Below, piece after piece: positions 2,368 through 12,361 of a DNA stretch of 51,860 bases. A model generated the notes under the pieces. The model did not search any database. It saw nothing but the letters and a program-made list of their open reading frames with translations, and was not told where the DNA came from. Origin of the DNA: an uncultured Actinomycetes bacterium (GTDB taxonomy: Bacteria > Actinomycetota > Thermoleophilia > Miltoncostaeales > Miltoncostaeaceae). The stretch's first letter is position 1. Each line of letters begins with the position of its first letter. The position numbers and the translations under genes were made by a program. The DNA lies in contig CALMXK010000092.1 in the NCBI GenBank assembly GCA_937871165.1, forward strand, positions 1 through 51,860. Reading direction: 5' to 3'.

Positions 2368-4875
2368 GTGCGACCCCACGCGTTCAGCACGGAAGGCTGG
2401 TCCATGCCGGCAGACACCCGACAACCACGGCGTTTTTGGTACGTCGTCGCGCTCGTTCTGGCCATGTTCGCGCTGGCCGCACCGGTGCGCGCGCTCGCAG
2501 CGGACCCTGTGCTCGCCGCCGTTGGCGACATGGTGTGCGACCCACTCGACCCGGACTATAACTCGGGCAATGGTTTCATCAACAAAAATAAGTGTCAACA
2601 AAAACCTGTTGCACAGACGATCGTAAATGACGGCGTCAATGCATTTGTTCCGCTGGGTGATGTGCAGTATTCATGTGGCAGCCTCCCGGCATTTCAAAGT
2701 GCATATCAATCGACGTTCGGCGCGCTGCTCAACAAGACTTACCCGGTGCCGGGAAACCATGAGTACCGCACCACGGCGGCAGTCGACTACAACGCCGCGC
2801 GAGAGACCGGGTGCACCTCGGTGAAGGATGCCGACGGGTACTTCCGGTACTTCGGTCAGGCGCGAGCAGCCGGCCAGACGCCCGGGAACCTGCCCGCTGA
2901 TGCGGTCAACAAGGCCAAGGGGTACTACTCCTACAACATCGGCAACTGGCACATCATCTCGATCAACACCAACGACGGATGCACGGCGAACGGCATCACC
3001 TGCACTGGTCCGAACGCCGCTACCCACTACAAGGGCTCGGCCCAGGAGCGCTGGCTTCGCAACGAACTGGCGGCAAACGCCAACCGCTGCGTGATGGCCG
3101 TGATGCACTACCCGCGCTACTCGTCCAACCTTGCCAAGAGCTACACCCGGACCGCCGATCCGAACGACTCCGCCGTGTCGGGCAAGGTCAAGGCCATGTG
3201 GGCCGACCTCTACGCGGGTGGCGCCGAGGTTGTCCTGTCGGGTCATGCGCACAACTACGAGCGGTTCCATCCGCAGGATTCCAACAACAATCGCAACGAT
3301 GCGTTCGGCGTCCAGCAGTTCGTGGTCGGCACGGGCGGCAACAACCTCGAGGTCAACGCGACGCAGACGAAAAACAGCGCGGCGCGTATCACTCCCCGGT
3401 TCGGATATCTCCGCATGACACTGTCGCCGACGAGCTACAGCTATGCGTTCAAGGGTGTCAACGGCAGTACATACGATGCCGGCACACGCCCCTGCCACGG
3501 TGCTCCGATCAACACGACGGCACCCGCCGCCGGTGCGACGATTGCAGGAACCACGCTCGTCAGCTCGCGCATCGCCGCGCCCGCCGCAACCTCGGCGGTC
3601 GACATCTACGTCGACGGCTCCAAGGTCGGCACGGCTCCGAAGATCCCGGCCAACTGCCACAGCGACGTGTTCGCGGATGCGGCCGTCTGGTACACGCAGG
3701 CCTTCTGTGACTTCAAGTACTCGTTGAACACCAGAACGCTGCCCGACGGAGCACACACCATTCGGGCGGTCTCGGTCGACCCGAACGGGGCGACGACAGG
3801 TGGCCCGAACGTGAGCGTCCTGGTCAAAAACGACACCACCGCCCCGTCTGTGCGGTTGACCATCCCCACGCAGGGCTCCGTGGTCACCGGAACGATCACG
3901 ATGACAGCGACCGCCTCGGACAACCGCGGTGTCGCCCGCGTCGACTTCATCGTCGACGGCAGTGTGGTCGGATCGGACACCACCTCGCCCTACACGGCCA
4001 GTTGGAACACAAAGACCGTGACCGACGGCAACCACCTGGTGGCCGCTCAAGCGTTCGATTCGGGTGGAAACGCGTCGGGTCGCTCGCAGGTGACGGTACG
4101 CGCGCAAAACGGCGTGCCGGCCGGAGCCACAGGCATCTCGTCCATGCGCCTGGGCTCCAACCTGGTCGTTCGGATCGCCATTCCGACCACCGGTTCCCTC
4201 AAGGATCCGGCGTACTCCAAGGCACGGACACGCATCGCATATGTCGGCCCCAACGGCATCGTGATCGCAAATGCCAACGGCACCGGCGCGCGCCTGCTCG
4301 CGGGCACACGCGGCGCCTCGCAGCCGGACTGGGGAGCGCTCGATAAGCGCATCGTGTTCATTCGAAGCGGCGCGATCTGGTCGATCCCGTCGGCCGGCGG
4401 CACGCTGAAGCGTCTGGCGGTCGGCAAGATCGTCAACCTGGCGACGTCCCCGAACGGCAAGCGGATCGTGTTCCAGCAGATCATCAAGCGTCGGTCGGAC
4501 CTGATCGTCATCGGCATCACCGGCCTCGGGCGCAAGAACATCACCAGGACCGCGACCGTCAACGAAGCGCAACCGACCTGGGTCAACAATCTGACCCTCG
4601 CCTACGCACGCAAGGTGCCGAAGTGGGCCATCTACCGGATGCCCGCGACCGGCGGCCGTTCGGTGCGGGTCACGAGCCCGACCCTGAACTGCCAGCAGCC
4701 GGCGTACTCGCCGACCGGTGGCGCCATCGCCTGCATCACCCGGACACTGACGAAGAACTACCTTCGCACGATGACCGCTCGTGGACTTCGCGTTCGCAAT
4801 CTGGGCGTCGTCCGGACCCTGCCGTCGCAGCCGGTGTGGGCGAACAATCTGGTGGTCACGTTCACTACCAACTGA
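2368..4875 (+). CDS. Secreted purple-acid-phosphatase-like metallophosphoesterase with Ig-like and beta-propeller domains
   Basis: 835 residues. Signal peptide about 1-45 (YVVALVLAMFALAAP, cleavage after RALA). Catalytic domain about 46-380 carries all five metallophosphatase blocks: GD (53-54), GDVQY (97-101), GNHE (129-132), MHYPRYS (His247) and GHAHNYERF (292-300). This is the purple acid phosphatase pattern, so the expected role is hydrolysis of phosphate esters outside the cell. Two Ig-like domains follow (about 381-490, 491-580; the second has VDFIVDGSVVGSDTTSPYTA), then a TolB/PD40-like beta-propeller (about 590-835). GTG at 2368 has a GAGGAG Shine-Dalgarno. ATG at 2404 has its own GGAAGG 7 nt before it and also leaves a good signal peptide. 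First of three tandem paralogs. Confidence 0.88.
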   Translation: MRPHAFSTEGWSMPADTRQPRRFWYVVALVLAMFALAAPVRALAADPVLAAVGDMVCDPLDPDYNSGNGFINKNKCQQKPVAQTIVNDGVNAFVPLGDVQYSCGSLPAFQSAYQSTFGALLNKTYPVPGNHEYRTTAAVDYNAARETGCTSVKDADGYFRYFGQARAAGQTPGNLPADAVNKAKGYYSYNIGNWHIISINTNDGCTANGITCTGPNAATHYKGSAQERWLRNELAANANRCVMAVMHYPRYSSNLAKSYTRTADPNDSAVSGKVKAMWADLYAGGAEVVLSGHAHNYERFHPQDSNNNRNDAFGVQQFVVGTGGNNLEVNATQTKNSAARITPRFGYLRMTLSPTSYSYAFKGVNGSTYDAGTRPCHGAPINTTAPAAGATIAGTTLVSSRIAAPAATSAVDIYVDGSKVGTAPKIPANCHSDVFADAAVWYTQAFCDFKYSLNTRTLPDGAHTIRAVSVDPNGATTGGPNVSVLVKNDTTAPSVRLTIPTQGSVVTGTITMTATASDNRGVARVDFIVDGSVVGSDTTSPYTASWNTKTVTDGNHLVAAQAFDSGGNASGRSQVTVRAQNGVPAGATGISSMRLGSNLVVRIAIPTTGSLKDPAYSKARTRIAYVGPNGIVIANANGTGARLLAGTRGASQPDWGALDKRIVFIRSGAIWSIPSAGGTLKRLAVGKIVNLATSPNGKRIVFQQIIKRRSDLIVIGITGLGRKNITRTATVNEAQPTWVNNLTLAYARKVPKWAIYRMPATGGRSVRVTSPTLNCQQPAYSPTGGAIACITRTLTKNYLRTMTARGLRVRNLGVVRTLPSQPVWANNLVVTFTTN

Positions 4876-4980: not shown

Positions 4981-5086
4981 GGTTGCGCCGAGTTCATCGA
5001 CGTCAGGCCTAGACCAACGGCCAGTTGTTCGTCAGCGCCGTTGGTGGCTAACTGTGGAGTATCTGCAGTTTTCCGACCGAGGAGAG
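4981..5086 (+). promoter_or_regulatory. Promoter and leader of the pseudo-phosphatase paralog
   Basis: Likely -35 TTGTTC (5025-5030), 18-bp spacer and -10 TAACTG (5049-5054). The -10 context GGCTAACTGTG and the later GACCGAGGAGA Shine-Dalgarno block are shared with the promoter of the paralog at 2368. Upstream, GGTTGCG (4981-4987) and GTTCATC (4992-4998) stand 11 bp apart, a weak PHO-box-like pair. A perfect inverted repeat CCAACGGC/GCCGTTGG (5014-5021 and 5037-5044) flanks the -35 and could be an operator. Confidence 0.45.
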
Positions 5087-5090
5087 GGTC

Positions 5091-7352
5091 GTGCGACAAA
5101 ACACCACCAGCATGGAAGGCTGGCACTTGCCAGCGAAACAACTGGGTTTGATGCGAAAGATGCTGCTCTTGACGGCAGCGACGATCGGGCTCGCAACCGT
5201 GGCGCTTCCAGGCCGCGCACTCGGCGCGGAGGCTGTGATCGCGGCGGCCGGCGAGTTGGTCTGTGACCCGCTCGATCCATACGTCGCCGGCGCCACCGCC
5301 ACCCGCTGTCAGCAGGCGGCGGTTTCGGATGACATCGTCGCCGACACCGACGTGGATGCATTCCTTCCGCTCGGAAATCTGCAGAACTACTGCGGTGGAC
5401 GCAGCGCGTTCGACTCGACATACGGCCCGAGCTTCGGTCGTCTGAACGGCATCGCCTACCCGGTTCCGGGCGCCATCGAGTACCGCAACTCGGCAGTCAC
5501 GACCAACGGCACCGACTGTTCGGCGCCGAACCCCAACCCGGCATATGTCGACCCGGTCACGACTCCCGGCGTTCCGCAGTACCTGGCTGATACGGCCCCC
5601 GGCTACTTCGGCTACTGGGGCGCAAACGGCTCGAGCAACCTGCCGGCCGATGCGACCAACCCGGCCAAGGGCTACTACACCTACACCGTCGGTTCCTGGA
5701 CGGTCCTCGCGATCAACACCAACGAGATCTGCAAGGACCTCGCGTGCCGCGGGTACGACGCCAACGGCACGTACACGGGATCCACGCAGGAGCGTTGGCT
5801 GCGTTCGTTCCTCGCCGCCAATGCCAACCGCTGCGTCATCGCACAGATGAACGCCCCGCGTTGGTCATCCAACCTCGCATCGCTGTACACCACGACCGCC
5901 GACAAGAACGACTGGGCCGGATCCGGCGCGGTGTCGGGCATCTGGCGTGACCTGTACGACGGTGGCGCCGATGTGGTGCTGAGTTCCTACGCCCGCAACT
6001 ACGAGCGCTTCCACCCGATGAACGCGACCGGCCAGCGCGACGACGCATACGGTGTGCGCCAGTTCGTCGTCGGCACCGGTGGCATCCAGTTCGAGGCCAA
6101 CAAGACGCCGATTGCAAACAGTGCCGCCATGTACGCCGCCCGCAAGTTCGGCTACCTGCGGATGGTCCTGAAGGACGGCAGCTACACGTGGGGCTACAAG
6201 GACGTCGACGGTGACACCTTCGACGCAGGCAGCGCAAACTGCCACGGCGCCCCGACCACCGTCACCGCTCCGGCCGCCGGCGCCAACCTCCCCGCGGCGA
6301 ACGCCGTCGCGGTCAGCGCCAAGGTCAATGCCCCGGGCGCGAGCGACACGGTCGACTTCTACGTCGGCTCGTGGAAGGTCGGCACCGCGGTGAAGGATCC
6401 GATCAACTGTCATACGGACATCACCAACGACACGCTCGTCAAGCGCGCGATGCCGTTTTGCACCTACACCGGCACGATCAACACCCGCTCGGTTCCGACC
6501 GGCAAGTACTCGCTTCGCGCCGTCTCCAACTCCACCGACCCGGCAACGCCGACCGCTGGCACGACGGGTGCCATCGCTGTGAGCGTCACCAACCCGTACA
6601 CCGGCATCGCGTCGGTCGTGGTCGGTCGCAGCACGCAGACGTGGCTCGGCCTTCCGGCCGGTGCGTCGATGAAGGAAGCCGCGTACTCGCATGCACGGAC
6701 CAAGCTCGCCTACACGAGCCCGGCCGGCATCGTGGTCGTCAACGCCAACGGAACCGGCGCAACGCTGGTGCCCGGCACCGCAGGTGCGACCCAGCCCGAT
6801 TGGGGACCGGCGGACGCCAAGCTCTTCTACCTGAAGAGCGGCACGATCTACTCGATCCCCGCAGCCGGTGGCACCGTCACCCGCCTCGCGGTCGGCAAGA
6901 TCTCCGGTCTGTCCGCATCGCCTGACGGCAAGCGCATCCTGTACGTGGTGAAGATGCCGAACGGCAAGACCGACATCTTCGTCATGGCCAGCACGGGTGC
7001 GAGCAAGAAGAACATCACCCGCACCCGTCTGCTGAGCGAAGGCCAGCCGACCTGGAAGACCACCACGACGATCGCGTTCGCTCGCAAGAGCACGACGTGG
7101 GCGGTCTACACGATGCCGGTGGCAGGTGGCACGGCTCGGCGGATCACCGCCCTGTCGCTCAACTGCCGTCAGCCGGCGTACTCGCCCGGTGGCCTGCGCC
7201 TCGCGTGTGTCACCAGCCTGACGTCGACCACGAGCATCATTCGGACGATGGCTGCAAACGGCACAGGCGTGAAGACGCTTCCGAGCACGAGCGCCAGCCG
7301 GACGGAGCCCGTCTGGGGAAGCGCGACTGTGGTGGCGTTCACCGCCAAGTAG
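5091..7352 (+). CDS. Secreted pseudo-metallophosphatase paralog (all catalytic motifs lost)
   Basis: 753 residues, clearly homologous to both neighbours along the whole length: signal peptide about 1-46, phosphatase-fold domain about 47-385, one Ig-like domain, C-terminal beta-propeller. Every metal-binding block is changed: GD is GE (54-55), GDxxY is GNLQN (95-99), GNHE is GAIE (127-130), the fourth-block His is Asn254 (QMNAPRW), and GHAH is SYAR (299-302). Flanking framework is kept (NYERFHP, RQFVVGTGG), the frame is intact and codon use matches the neighbours, so it looks selected as a non-enzyme and not decaying. A binding, scaffold or regulatory role is inferred. GTG at 5091 follows GAGGAG; TTG at 5127 follows GGAAGG and is the alternative start. 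It has one Ig domain fewer than its neighbours. Confidence 0.85.
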   Translation: MRQNTTSMEGWHLPAKQLGLMRKMLLLTAATIGLATVALPGRALGAEAVIAAAGELVCDPLDPYVAGATATRCQQAAVSDDIVADTDVDAFLPLGNLQNYCGGRSAFDSTYGPSFGRLNGIAYPVPGAIEYRNSAVTTNGTDCSAPNPNPAYVDPVTTPGVPQYLADTAPGYFGYWGANGSSNLPADATNPAKGYYTYTVGSWTVLAINTNEICKDLACRGYDANGTYTGSTQERWLRSFLAANANRCVIAQMNAPRWSSNLASLYTTTADKNDWAGSGAVSGIWRDLYDGGADVVLSSYARNYERFHPMNATGQRDDAYGVRQFVVGTGGIQFEANKTPIANSAAMYAARKFGYLRMVLKDGSYTWGYKDVDGDTFDAGSANCHGAPTTVTAPAAGANLPAANAVAVSAKVNAPGASDTVDFYVGSWKVGTAVKDPINCHTDITNDTLVKRAMPFCTYTGTINTRSVPTGKYSLRAVSNSTDPATPTAGTTGAIAVSVTNPYTGIASVVVGRSTQTWLGLPAGASMKEAAYSHARTKLAYTSPAGIVVVNANGTGATLVPGTAGATQPDWGPADAKLFYLKSGTIYSIPAAGGTVTRLAVGKISGLSASPDGKRILYVVKMPNGKTDIFVMASTGASKKNITRTRLLSEGQPTWKTTTTIAFARKSTTWAVYTMPVAGGTARRITALSLNCRQPAYSPGGLRLACVTSLTSTTSIIRTMAANGTGVKTLPSTSASRTEPVWGSATVVAFTAK

Positions 7353-7374: not shown

Positions 7375-7418
7375 GGTGGCCGGGGATGGCGCAAGCATCC
7401 TCGGCCACCGGTGTTTTT
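7375..7418 (+). terminator. Intrinsic terminator after the pseudo-phosphatase gene
   Basis: A 14-bp stem (7375-7388 with 7396-7409, one G-T wobble) closes a 7-nt loop and is followed by a T5 run at 7414-7418. It is 23 nt past the stop codon, so the next paralog needs its own promoter. Confidence 0.85.
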
Positions 7419-7528: not shown

Positions 7529-9820
7529 TTGGGTTCTGCTCGCATGCTCCGCACCTGGCTCAGCGCCTTGATCGGGGCCGGAACCCTGTTCATCGGTGCG
7601 GGGGCGGCACACGCTGCAGACCCGATGATCGCCGCTGCGGGTGATATCGCGTGCGGGGTGTCTGACGGAAGCGGCTGCAAGCAGATGGCGACCAGCGCGC
7701 TGATCTTCAACAGAGGGTACGACGCAGCCCTTCCCCTCGGCGATCTGCAGTACAACTGCATGACCCCTGAGGACGTCGCACATGGCTATGACCCAAGCTG
7801 GGGCCGGTTCAAGGCCATCACCAAACCGGTGCTCGGCAACCACGAGTATCGGTCTGCGGGCAACTGCGACCCGTTGGCCACCGGATACTTCAGCTACTTC
7901 GCCGACGGCGCGAACCTGCCGGCAGCGGCCATCGATCCCACCCGCGGGTACTACTCGTACGACATCGGCGATTGGCACTTCATCGCACTGAACACCGGCG
8001 AGAACTGCCGTGTCGTGTCATGTGCCTACAACTCGGATCAGGTGAACTGGCTCAAGGCCGACCTCGCAGCCAACAACAGCACCTGCACCGTGGCGTACTT
8101 CCACTACCCGCTCTTCTCATCGAAGACGCCACTGCCCACCTACACCCTGCCGTTCTGGGACGCGCTCTACGCGGGCGGCGCGGACATCGTCTTGAACGGC
8201 CATGTCCACAACTACGAGCGGTTCGGACCGCAAACACCCGATGGGGTCGCAGATCTGGCGTATGGCATTCGCCAGTTCATCGTCGGAACCGGTGGGCTGA
8301 GTCCCGAGTCCACCGCCTCCGTGCCGACCGCAAACAGTGAGCTCCAGCTCGCGATCAACGGCATCCTGCGACTGAAGCTCGGCGCCGGGACATACCAATG
8401 GGAATTGGTCGACATCAACAATGCCGTGCGCGACAGTGGCACGGATACCTGCCACGGCAAGCCGGGAACGACCGACACGCGCCCGCCGGCGGTGTCGTTG
8501 AACACCCCGTCGAACGGCGCAACCGTCTTCGGCCAGGTGACGGTGGGAGCCAATGCGAGTGACAACGACCAGGTGTCCTCGGTGCGGTTCTTTGTCGACG
8601 GTGCCGCGATCGGCACCCCGGACACGTCGTCACCGTACTCGGTCAGACTCGACACGACGACGCTCACGAACGGCCAGCACACGCTGACTGCGACCGCCAT
8701 GGACCGGACCGGCAACCAGACGACGAGCTCGGCCCGTTCCATCACCGTCGACAACGACTTTGTGGCTCCGACGGCCCGTCTCACGGCACCGTCGGCCAAC
8801 GCCGTCGTGACCGGCCAGGTCGGCCTTGCGGCAATGGCCGTCGACAACCCCGGCGGCAAGGGTGTCCAGCGTGTGGACTTCCTCGTTGACGGCGCCACCG
8901 TTGCGACGGACACCAGCGCCCCGTACTCCGCAAGTTGGACCAGCACCCGCGTACGGGACGGCGTCCACCAGATCGCCGCGCGAGCGGTTGACCTTCGCGG
9001 CAACGTCTCGGCGCTCTCACAGACGTCGGTGCTGGTGCAGAACGTGATCGTCGCCGGGCCGGGGAGCACGTCGATCGCCTCGATCGGTGTCACGGCGACG
9101 ACCCCCACGGTGATCGCCAAGGCGATCACCGGGTCGCTGTCGGACCCGACGTACTCCCATGCCGGCACACGACTGGCCTATACGTCGCCCGACGGCATCA
9201 TCGTGGCGAACGCCAATGGCTCTGACCGGCGCCTGATCCCCGGCACGAAGGGTGCCGCGCGGCCGGGATGGGGTGTCAAGGACACGACGCTCGTGTACAT
9301 GTCGGCAGGCGCGATCTACCGCATCCCGGCAGGCGGCGGTACGCGTACCCGGCTTGCGCGTGGTGCCATCGGCAACATGGCGGTCTCGCCGAACGGCCTT
9401 CGCGTCGTCTACCAGCAGATCATGGGCAACAAGCGCACCGACCTGTTCGTGGTGTCGACCTCCGGCGGCAAGACCAAGAACATCACCCGCAGCGCAACCA
9501 AGAGCGAGTATCAGCCGACGTGGCGCGACAACGCAACCATCGCCTATGCGCGACAGACGCCGAAGTGGACGATCTTCACGGTTCCCCGCCTCGGCGGCAA
9601 GGAGCGGCGCGTGACGGCACCCAAGTTCAACTGCCGCCAGCCGGCCTCGTCCCCCGACGGCAAGCGCCTGGCCTGTTCATCCCAGGTCAAGGGCTCTCGA
9701 ACGATCATTCGCACGTTCACGTGGACCGGCGCCGGCCACACCATGCTGCGCATCCCGACGAGCAAGCCGCAATGGCCGACATGGGCGAGTTCGTCCGTGG
9801 TCGCTTACGTCACCAACTGA
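7529..9820 (+). CDS. Secreted purple-acid-phosphatase-like metallophosphoesterase, third tandem paralog
   Basis: 763 residues from TTG 7529, chosen for the GGAAGG Shine-Dalgarno; ATG 7544 is possible. Signal peptide about 1-29 (LIGAGTLFIGAGAAHA). Catalytic motifs are complete: GD (38-39), GDLQY (71-75), GNHEY (103-107), FHYPLFSS (His192) and GHVHNYERF (224-232), so a working secreted phosphatase is expected. Two Ig-like domains (VRFFVDGAAIGTPDTSSPYS and VDFLVDGATVATDTSAPYSA) precede the beta-propeller with PD40-like repeats (MAVSPNGLRVVYQQ, ASSPDGKRLACSS). It is shorter in the catalytic domain than the first paralog because two insertions are absent. Substrate cannot be deduced. It ends at a long palindromic repeat. 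Confidence 0.88.
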   Translation: MGSARMLRTWLSALIGAGTLFIGAGAAHAADPMIAAAGDIACGVSDGSGCKQMATSALIFNRGYDAALPLGDLQYNCMTPEDVAHGYDPSWGRFKAITKPVLGNHEYRSAGNCDPLATGYFSYFADGANLPAAAIDPTRGYYSYDIGDWHFIALNTGENCRVVSCAYNSDQVNWLKADLAANNSTCTVAYFHYPLFSSKTPLPTYTLPFWDALYAGGADIVLNGHVHNYERFGPQTPDGVADLAYGIRQFIVGTGGLSPESTASVPTANSELQLAINGILRLKLGAGTYQWELVDINNAVRDSGTDTCHGKPGTTDTRPPAVSLNTPSNGATVFGQVTVGANASDNDQVSSVRFFVDGAAIGTPDTSSPYSVRLDTTTLTNGQHTLTATAMDRTGNQTTSSARSITVDNDFVAPTARLTAPSANAVVTGQVGLAAMAVDNPGGKGVQRVDFLVDGATVATDTSAPYSASWTSTRVRDGVHQIAARAVDLRGNVSALSQTSVLVQNVIVAGPGSTSIASIGVTATTPTVIAKAITGSLSDPTYSHAGTRLAYTSPDGIIVANANGSDRRLIPGTKGAARPGWGVKDTTLVYMSAGAIYRIPAGGGTRTRLARGAIGNMAVSPNGLRVVYQQIMGNKRTDLFVVSTSGGKTKNITRSATKSEYQPTWRDNATIAYARQTPKWTIFTVPRLGGKERRVTAPKFNCRQPASSPDGKRLACSSQVKGSRTIIRTFTWTGAGHTMLRIPTSKPQWPTWASSSVVAYVTN

Positions 9821-9827
9821 AAATCAC

Positions 9828-9866
9828 AGTTAACCGTTCTGGTGTCAGACACCAGAACGGTTAACT
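9828..9866. repeat. 39-bp palindromic repeat, copy 1
   Basis: Perfect inverted repeat: 19-nt arms 9828-9846 and 9848-9866 around a single A. Core AACCGTTCTGGTGTC. It sits between two convergent genes (stops at 9820 and 9889), where the hairpin could end transcription from both sides, although T-runs are lacking. Near-identical copies lie at 42469 and 42549, which suggests a dispersed REP-like element more than a dedicated terminator. Confidence 0.9.
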
Positions 9867-9888
9867 ACCACGGCAGACCAGTGGCCGC

Positions 9889-11157
9889 TCAGTGGCAGGT
9901 GCCGGTGCCGGTGTCGGTAAACGCGGCTCCACCGGCGCGGACGAACTCCCAGTCATAGGCGCCCCGGCGCAGCACGAGCTTCAGCGCACCGTAGGTCGTG
10001 TCCGTGCTGGCAGCGGTATTGCCCACGGGGCCGGTGAAGGGATAGAAACCGATCCCACCGCTTCCCACGACAAACGACCGGATACCCCGCGCGCGATCGA
10101 CCTGATCACTCGGGTTTTGCGGCTCGAACCGCTGGTAGTTGTGCTGGTGGCCGTTCAGAACGACCTCCACACCGGCCCCGTACAGCAGGTCGACCCACGG
10201 CTTGACCTCCCGCGTACGACCGTGTTCGTCGGTCGTCCGCGTCCAGTACGGCTCATGCCAAAACGCCAGCGTGCAGGCCGTGCGATGCGATGCAAGGTCG
10301 GCGCGCAGCCACGCCAACACGCCCGCCGGATCACAGTCGTAGCGATAGATGGCGGACGGCAGCTGGATGATGTGCCAGGAGCCCAGGTTGAAGGAGTACG
10401 GCGCCATCGCCGACCGCTCCCAGTAACGGTCGTAGTCTGAGGGCGTGCAGCTTTTGACGTCATGTGTCGGGCCGGACGTCGGCATCATCTTCTTCCACAG
10501 GCCGCCCGGCTTCGGTCCCCACAGCTTGTCGGCGCCACCGTTGATGGCCGAACGCGACCCGTACTTGTACTGGTAGTCGCCGAGCATCAGGATGCGCGCC
10601 GGCCGCTCGGCGGCCACCACGTCGCGGACCGCCATGGCGTCCCGATCGGTGGCACTGCTGGTCAAGTCGCCGACCGCCATCACGACGACCGAACCCGGCG
10701 ATGCATCCTTGGACGGACTCGGCGCGGGCCGGCCGGACGCAGGGGCCAATGACAGAGTCGCCGCCGCAGTCTCGTCGCCGATGATCGCCTGCACTCGCAC
10801 GTCGCCGCGCCCGTCCTTCGGGGCGTCCACCGACAGTGAGAACCGCCCGCCCTTGGTGGTGCGCACATCCGACACGCGGCGGCCGTTGACCGTCACCGCT
10901 CCTGAACGGAAGGGTCGGAATCCGGTTCCTCTAATCTCGAAGGTCTCACCAGGCGAAATCGTGGCGTCCGGAACGCTCAGGCGAGGACCGCTCGGCGTGG
11001 TGACGGTGGACCCGGTCGTCGTCGCCTGCCGAGTGGTCGTCGGCGGATCTGGAACGTCCATGGAGTCGCCCAGACGACTTCCCAAGACGATGCCCGCGGG
11101 CAGCACGACTGCGGCGGTTCCTGCGATCAGCAGCCACCGACGGCGATTCACGTTCAC
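9889..11157 (-). CDS. Membrane-anchored or Tat-exported metallophosphoesterase
   Basis: 422 residues from GTG 11157, preceded by GGAGGATGGA. N-terminus MNVNRRRWLLIAGTAAVV looks like a Tat-type (RRxWL) signal or uncleaved anchor. A Thr-rich linker, an IPT/Ig-like segment (ISPGETFEIRGTGFRPFRSG) and a Pro/Ser linker lead to the catalytic domain (about 155-422): AVGDLTSS (GD 163-164), GDYQY (193-197), GPTHD in place of GNHE, FWHEPYW and NGHQHNYQRF. Most metal ligands are kept but the Asn of block three appears to be Thr, so activity is probable, not certain. It is more distant from the tandem trio and lacks their propeller. It converges on the third paralog, with the palindromic repeat between. 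Confidence 0.8.
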   Translation of the reverse strand: MNVNRRRWLLIAGTAAVVLPAGIVLGSRLGDSMDVPDPPTTTRQATTTGSTVTTPSGPRLSVPDATISPGETFEIRGTGFRPFRSGAVTVNGRRVSDVRTTKGGRFSLSVDAPKDGRGDVRVQAIIGDETAAATLSLAPASGRPAPSPSKDASPGSVVVMAVGDLTSSATDRDAMAVRDVVAAERPARILMLGDYQYKYGSRSAINGGADKLWGPKPGGLWKKMMPTSGPTHDVKSCTPSDYDRYWERSAMAPYSFNLGSWHIIQLPSAIYRYDCDPAGVLAWLRADLASHRTACTLAFWHEPYWTRTTDEHGRTREVKPWVDLLYGAGVEVVLNGHQHNYQRFEPQNPSDQVDRARGIRSFVVGSGGIGFYPFTGPVGNTAASTDTTYGALKLVLRRGAYDWEFVRAGGAAFTDTGTGTCH

Positions 11158-11344
11158 AGCGATGTTCCATCCTCCGTTGCGTCCGTGCCAACCCGTCAGC
11201 CCTGCGGGAATGCACCCAAGTGATCCAATCGCGCGCAGTTTAACGACCGGGCGCCAGCGCTCCAATGCGACGTGTCCGCCACCGTGCGCCTTGCCGACGC
11301 GCGGCCGGTCTGCGACGGTAGGTCATCCCCGTCGAAGGACCAGA

Positions 11345-12361
11345 ATGCGCCGCTCGCTGATCGCCACGTTCGTACTGGTGACGATGACCACACCGGTCCT
11401 CGCCGCCACCCCGGGAGTCCAGCCGGTTCCTGTCGCCCCTGCCGGACGCCTTGTCGACACGAGCCATCCCAACCGGTACGTCGGCACCGGAACGCCCGCC
11501 AGCTGCACGTCCGCCGCAGTCGTCGCAGCCGTTCGGGCGGGGGGCGTCATCCGTTTCCGGTGCGGGTCCGCCCCGGTCACGATCGTCATGCGCCAAACGG
11601 CCAAGGTGTTGAACACGCGCACCCGGGTCGTCCTCGACGGGCAGGGCAAGGTCACGTTGAGCGGCGGCGGCGTTCGACGAATCCTCTACATGAACACCTG
11701 CGACAAGACGCTGGTGTGGACGACGTCGCACTGTCAGAACCAGGCCACCCCGCAGCTCGTGGTGCAGAACCTGACCTTCACACGCGGCAATTCGACGGGC
11801 CAACACCAGGAGGGCGGTGGCGGCGGCGCGATCTTCGTCCGCGGAGGGCGCGTCAAGGTTGTCGCCAGTCGATTCATCAACAACCGGTGCGATGCGACGG
11901 GACCCGACCTCGGCGGCGCGGCGCTGCGCGTGCTGTCGCAGTACCGCAACCTTCCGGTCTACGTGACCCGCAGCACGTTCACGGGAGGCGTGTGCTCCAA
12001 CGGCGGCGCGCTGTCGAGCATCGGCGTCTCGTGGATCGTGTCCAACAGCCGGTTCACCAACAATCGCGCCATCGGCCGGGGCGCCAACCCGGCGTCGCCG
12101 GGAACGCCCGGCGGCGGGAGCGGCGGTGCGATCTACCTGGATGGCAACCGCTTCGGCCTGCGAGTGGCGGGCACGCTCATCGAGGACAATCGCGCGAACG
12201 AGGGCGGCGGTGCGATCTTTTTCGTCAGCAACGACCGCACCGGCACCTTGGCGATCGATCGTTCAACGCTTCGGCGAAACGTGAGCGGCCGCTTTCAGAA
12301 CGCGCCGGGGATCTACTTTCTCGGGGACCGGTTCGTGCGATCCCTGGCGATCATTCGGTAG
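11345..12361 (+). CDS. Secreted beta-helix protein with Gly-rich turns
   Basis: 338 residues from ATG 11345, with AAGGA 6 nt upstream. Signal peptide 1-20 (MRRSLIATFVLVTMTTPVLA, cleaved at LA-A). Repeated GGAI/GGAL turns and NN-R motifs (EGGGGGAIFVRGGRVKVVAS, NGGALSSIGVSWIVSNSRF, GGSGGAIYLDGNRFGL, NEGGGAIFF) mark a parallel beta-helix of the polymorphic-outer-membrane/pectate-lyase-like class. Four Cys residues may form disulfides outside the cell. No catalytic site was recognised. It is divergent from the phosphatase at 11157, with a shared 187-bp control region, and its last 11 bp overlap the c-di-GMP gene that converges on it. Confidence 0.75.
   Translation: MRRSLIATFVLVTMTTPVLAATPGVQPVPVAPAGRLVDTSHPNRYVGTGTPASCTSAAVVAAVRAGGVIRFRCGSAPVTIVMRQTAKVLNTRTRVVLDGQGKVTLSGGGVRRILYMNTCDKTLVWTTSHCQNQATPQLVVQNLTFTRGNSTGQHQEGGGGGAIFVRGGRVKVVASRFINNRCDATGPDLGGAALRVLSQYRNLPVYVTRSTFTGGVCSNGGALSSIGVSWIVSNSRFTNNRAIGRGANPASPGTPGGGSGGAIYLDGNRFGLRVAGTLIEDNRANEGGGAIFFVSNDRTGTLAIDRSTLRRNVSGRFQNAPGIYFLGDRFVRSLAIIR

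Follow-up and report, generated by a model that had tools for sequence, protein, structure and literature searches.

Gene B, which encodes a pseudo-purple acid phosphatase (pseudo-PAP) of 753 amino acids in an intact open reading frame with a GTG start (positions 5091-7352, + strand), is most likely a constrained, metal-free pseudoenzyme rather than a decaying gene. Judged from the sequence, we assign a probability of approximately 0.85 to this reading. The positions refer to the window, namely, the whole 51,860-nucleotide stretch of actinomycete DNA that was analyzed. Every residue of the PAP metal-site motif set was replaced in this protein, and the remainder of the domain evolved at the rate of its intact paralogs.

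Loss of the metal site in gene B

The PAP motif set comprises five blocks with eight residues, and the full set is written DDYNHHHH; the five-block definition is that of plant PAPs (PMC5591292). The PAP-like domain of B (5229-6251, + strand, residues approximately 47-388) retained 0/8 of these residues, with the substitutions being D55E, D96N, Y99N, N128A, H129I, H254N, H300Y, and H302R. The altered blocks are GE (residues 54-55), LGNLQN (94-99), GAIE (127-130), MNAPRW (253-258), and SSYAR (298-302). The corresponding blocks are GD/GDVQY/GNHE/MHYPRY/GHAH in A, the neighboring gene upstream, and GD/GDLQY/GNHE/FHYPLF/GHVH in C, the neighboring gene downstream. Two further changes, Y255A and G299S, lie beside the ligands. 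The codons of B also differ, several of them at two or more bases (for example, AAC to GCC in N128A and CAT to ATC in H129I, in one clean frame), and we conclude from this that the substitutions are real. A previous sequence-only reading claimed that all five blocks of B are altered and that the paralogs on both sides are complete. The alignment and codons confirmed the former, and all eight residues were present in both A and C. We infer that metal binding and phosphatase activity are absent in B.

The fold of the domain appears to have been preserved. The AlphaFold2 model of B, built from a 102-row alignment, had a mean pLDDT of 85; the core blocks of the PAP domain were mostly between 88 and 98, and the stretches of low pLDDT were mostly loops. 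Foldseek searches with this model matched mammalian PAPs (2bq8, E=1.6e-11, target TM 0.72). A family profile matched solved PAPs, including wheat PAP (6git, E=3e-14) as well as the kidney-bean and mammalian enzymes. These results agree with the claim of a preserved fold, which is predicted with confidence to be that of a PAP. B did not match PF00149 (Metallophos) at the Pfam cut-off, whereas A, C, and the paralog E did, and no other Pfam family matched B. B resembles the PAPs (PF00149) in its modeled fold and has paralogs, A and C, that carry the five blocks; however, it differs from them in lacking the motif residues and a PF00149 match.

The other modules of B were also examined. A signal peptide was recognized by eye in the sequence of the N terminus. 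The region of residues approximately 389-503 is Ig-like on the basis of the alignment and modeled strands, and it did not match Pfam Big_7. The C-terminal region (residues approximately 504-753) matched TIGR02800 with E=1.5e-11 and a score far below the equivalog cut-off; therefore, we describe this propeller as TolB-like rather than as TolB. Its structural matches in Foldseek were the TolB entries 1crz and 2ojh. The frame, signal peptide, and propeller are intact, as originally read, while the Ig domain is a putative assignment made without a Big_7 match.

Constraint on gene B outside the motif

Seven motif positions are invariant among A, C, and E; E lacks the Tyr of motif II. B retained none of these seven; however, it retained 87 of the 93 non-motif positions that are invariant in the same three proteins (Fisher p=1e-7). 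A similar pattern was found in a comparison with approximately 140 class and phylum homologs, in which B kept all 25 non-motif columns conserved in at least 95% of them and 0/5 motif columns, and, when conservation was set at 90%, 35/38 non-motif and 0/7 motif columns. Since the motif was lost while other conserved columns were kept, the loss in B is confined to the metal site.

Because no ortholog of B was found, the rate of evolution was assessed by comparing the branches of paralogs and not as dN/dS. In a 145-row tree constructed without the motif columns, the end branches of A, B, and E were 0.39, 0.37, and 0.38, respectively; in a 23-row repeat tree, also excluding motif columns, they were 0.43, 0.43, and 0.41. 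Amino acid replacements outside the motif sites were similarly frequent in B (38/182), A (36/180), and E (31/175). The three genes also shared a similar codon-position pattern, with a GC3 of 85%. B is no faster than its intact paralogs by these sequence comparisons, in which constraint is judged against paralogs and not by the dN/dS of orthologs. It is chiefly this equality of rates that speaks against a gene in decay. The proposal that B has been selected for a non-catalytic function was supported by the total loss of ligands, the kept fold and frame, and the paralog-equal rate in the rest of the domain.

The locus and the paralogs of gene B

Gene A (2368-4875, + strand, 835 amino acids) and gene C (7544-9820, + strand, 758 amino acids) each encode a PAP-like protein in which all of the motif residues are present and are accompanied by two Big_7 Ig domains and a TolB-like propeller. 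The start of C was placed at the ATG at approximately 7544, and the start of a longer open reading frame at 7097 was rejected. A fourth PAP-like gene, D (9889-11265, - strand, 458 amino acids), has GPTHD at the GNHE block and lacks a propeller. The GPTHD block was also detected in the locus L012 and may mark a distinct subfamily. The description of the genes as a triad needs to be revised: four PAP-like genes adjoin one another (A, B, and C on the + strand and D on the - strand), and the fifth member, E, is located elsewhere.

The leader of B, GGCTAACTGTG...TTTTC...GAGGAG (5046-5090, + strand), is matched by that of A (2323-2367, + strand). Throughout the genome, the leader pattern of B was found at one other site only, before A (2323-2351), and searches of Rfam did not identify an RNA element in this conserved leader. 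A hairpin resembling an intrinsic terminator, with 14 pairs and a T-rich tail, lies between B and C (7375-7409, + strand). Due to this strong terminator-like hairpin, B is probably transcribed separately from C and not in one operon with it. Another terminator-like hairpin, of 20 pairs (9826-9868), was noted between the convergent genes C and D. The phosphatase cluster is flanked on both sides by beta-helix-like and PMP-repeat-like proteins (339-1976 and 10592-12361, + strand), the Pfam matches of which were weak.

Paralog E is encoded on another contig (C149, L002:1309-3627), and GDLQE replaces GDxxY in this protein, with the loss of the motif-II Tyr. In the PAP-like domain, B showed 53.7% identity to A, 55.2% to E, and 43.4% to C, and A and E were 58.4% identical to each other. 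With 54-55% identity to A and E and 0/8 motif residues, B is, as judged from its sequence, a predicted pseudoenzyme derived from a PAP-like family. A, B, and E formed a fully supported clade in the 145-row tree without motif columns. Regarding the branching within this clade, the nearest paralog of B in the 23-row tree was E and not a neighboring gene; B+E was favored (85/31), and A+B was not rejected (p-AU 0.23). With B and E as sisters, the loss of Tyr may have preceded that of the other ligands.

Orthologs of A, B, and E were not found in 42 genomes of the family (including one congener), 399 genomes of the class, or 396 genomes of the phylum. These searches, a scan of genome contigs, and searches of relatives and plasmid records yielded distant homologs of B only, and the best homolog outside its own genome was 43% identical. 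A phytase-like protein, the N-terminal domain of which was assigned by reading the sequence, is encoded on contig C141 (L006:208-2598), and has the Ig and TolB-like propeller arrangement of A, B, C, and E. The presence of the propeller on this protein also suggests that it is a common surface module.

Motif losses in the protein family

The family count was based on an alignment of 146 rows from fetched loci, to which five reference rows of window genes were added, with some window genes appearing twice. The full set DDYNHHHH was present in 119 rows, and B was the only protein with zero motif residues among approximately 145 sampled members. Partial losses were detected in family f23, with SDDDHRHR in L077 (G518:C11) and KDYKHNRH in L068 (G735:C390), and in family f19, where a small clade from several genera has the pattern DDYD[AQE]H[ND]H. 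An altered copy adjoins an intact copy in two genomes: L169 (G486:C71), 8631-12143, and L168 (G496:C25), 7855-10793. Both of these altered copies, which are of the type that makes up the f19 clade, have three changes, N to D, H to Q/E, and H to N/D. Arg or Lys occupies a ligand position in all three of the complete members with the most changes. Since partial losses are repeated, inactivation appears to recur in the family, with B representing the extreme case.

Incomplete PAPs have been described in plants. The chickpea family members CaPAP16, CaPAP18a, and CaPAP23b lack motif blocks (PMC5591292). However, the incomplete PAPs described in that study lack single blocks or residues, whereas B lacks all. 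B also differs from these proteins in being bacterial and in carrying Ig-like and propeller modules. A bacterial pseudo-PAP was not described in the literature searched, which consisted of open-licence papers.

Possible functions of gene B

The sequence indicates that B arose when a gene was duplicated in a lineage-specific group of PAP-like surface proteins (A, B, and E), and that the whole dinuclear metal site was lost, with the remaining fold staying under the constraint of an intact copy. Since the export signal and Ig-like/propeller modules of B are as in A, C, and E, B should co-locate with the predicted active phosphatases. The old cleft would now be lined by Glu55, Asn96, Asn99, Asn254, Tyr300, and Arg302 in place of the Fe/Zn ligands. 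Since most of the new residues are polar (E, N, N, N, Y, and R), a polar cleft probably remains in B. It would hold a phosphoester or an anionic polymer uncleaved, thereby concentrating the substrate near the predicted active paralogs. Positions 55 and 302 are, as we assume from PAP homology, ligands of one metal, M1. Judging from these motif positions, a salt bridge between Arg302 and Glu55 could stand in for the M1 metal. We consider the full account, a maintained secreted pseudo-phosphatase that is probably a non-catalytic binder, to fall slightly short of an even chance. The specific assignment of B as a binding protein for a phosphoester or an anionic polymer is more tentative.

A role for B as a partner or regulator is ranked next after the binding role and is somewhat doubtful. 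B may be a structural or allosteric partner in a hetero-oligomer with A or E, which it would stabilize, activate, or restrain. In architecture and predicted location it does not differ from A and E, and the identity of its PAP domain is 54-55% to both. Moreover, B adjoins A, their leaders match, and a partly altered copy stands in tandem with an intact one in two other genomes. However, B has a terminator-like hairpin of its own, and its nearest paralog, E, is on another contig. Mammalian PAPs act as monomers, which also counts against a partner role. Precedents for such a role are available among other proteins. The pseudokinase Fam20A is the secretory-pathway partner of its active paralog Fam20C (PMC4421793), and, as is predicted for B, it is secreted and inactive and has an active enzyme as its paralog. 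In contrast to B, for which pairing is a proposal from genes, these proteins have an animal kinase fold and their complex was shown experimentally. Eukaryotic DNA-polymerase B-subunits have a calcineurin-like fold with inactivated catalytic motifs and a scaffold role (PMC4996933); however, they are replication proteins with an OB domain and not secreted PAP relatives.

It is improbable that B is still an enzyme with swapped chemistry, either metal-free or with a relocated site, such as Glu55/Tyr300/Arg302. The site of B is still polar and partly charged, and the gene is constrained; however, no alternative catalytic pattern was recognized in B, and we know of no calcineurin-like or PAP enzyme that works without its metal ligands.

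Recent inactivation, by which B would be heading for loss, is strongly disfavored. The restriction of B to one species, with no ortholog found, is consistent with decay. However, its frame of 753 codons is intact, its sequence outside the motif evolved no faster than those of the intact paralogs, and all of the other columns conserved at 95% or more were kept. Random hits would not have taken all eight motif residues and spared the rest.

An artefact (an assembly error, chimera, or contaminating contig) is scarcely credible: the assembly is split into 205 contigs and relatives lack the gene set; however, genome completeness is 94% and contamination 0.64%, the contig of B also harbors family-typical housekeeping genes, which makes contamination unlikely, the PDH E1 on this contig is 74-77% identical to the copies in 4/5 relatives tested, the eight changes in B lie in one clean frame and some of them alter more than one base of a codon, and the close paralog E is on a second contig.

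Pseudoenzymes have been well studied among kinases and other signaling enzymes. To our knowledge, they are poorly known among bacterial secreted hydrolases. B is an unusually clean case because all of its motif residues are gone and the remaining domain has kept the pace of its intact sisters. It permits a direct test of the role of an extracellular phosphatase fold without metals. The partial losses in the family suggest that annotation by family profiles labels some non-enzymes as metallophosphoesterases and misses others. A broader proposal, which we regard as unlikely, is that B is a secreted metal-free PAP-fold subunit that serves the adjoining active phosphatases in substrate capture or regulation, and that such pairings recur independently in related bacteria. 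If this is true, pseudo-PAPs would be a general and unrecognized part of bacterial extracellular phosphorus scavenging.
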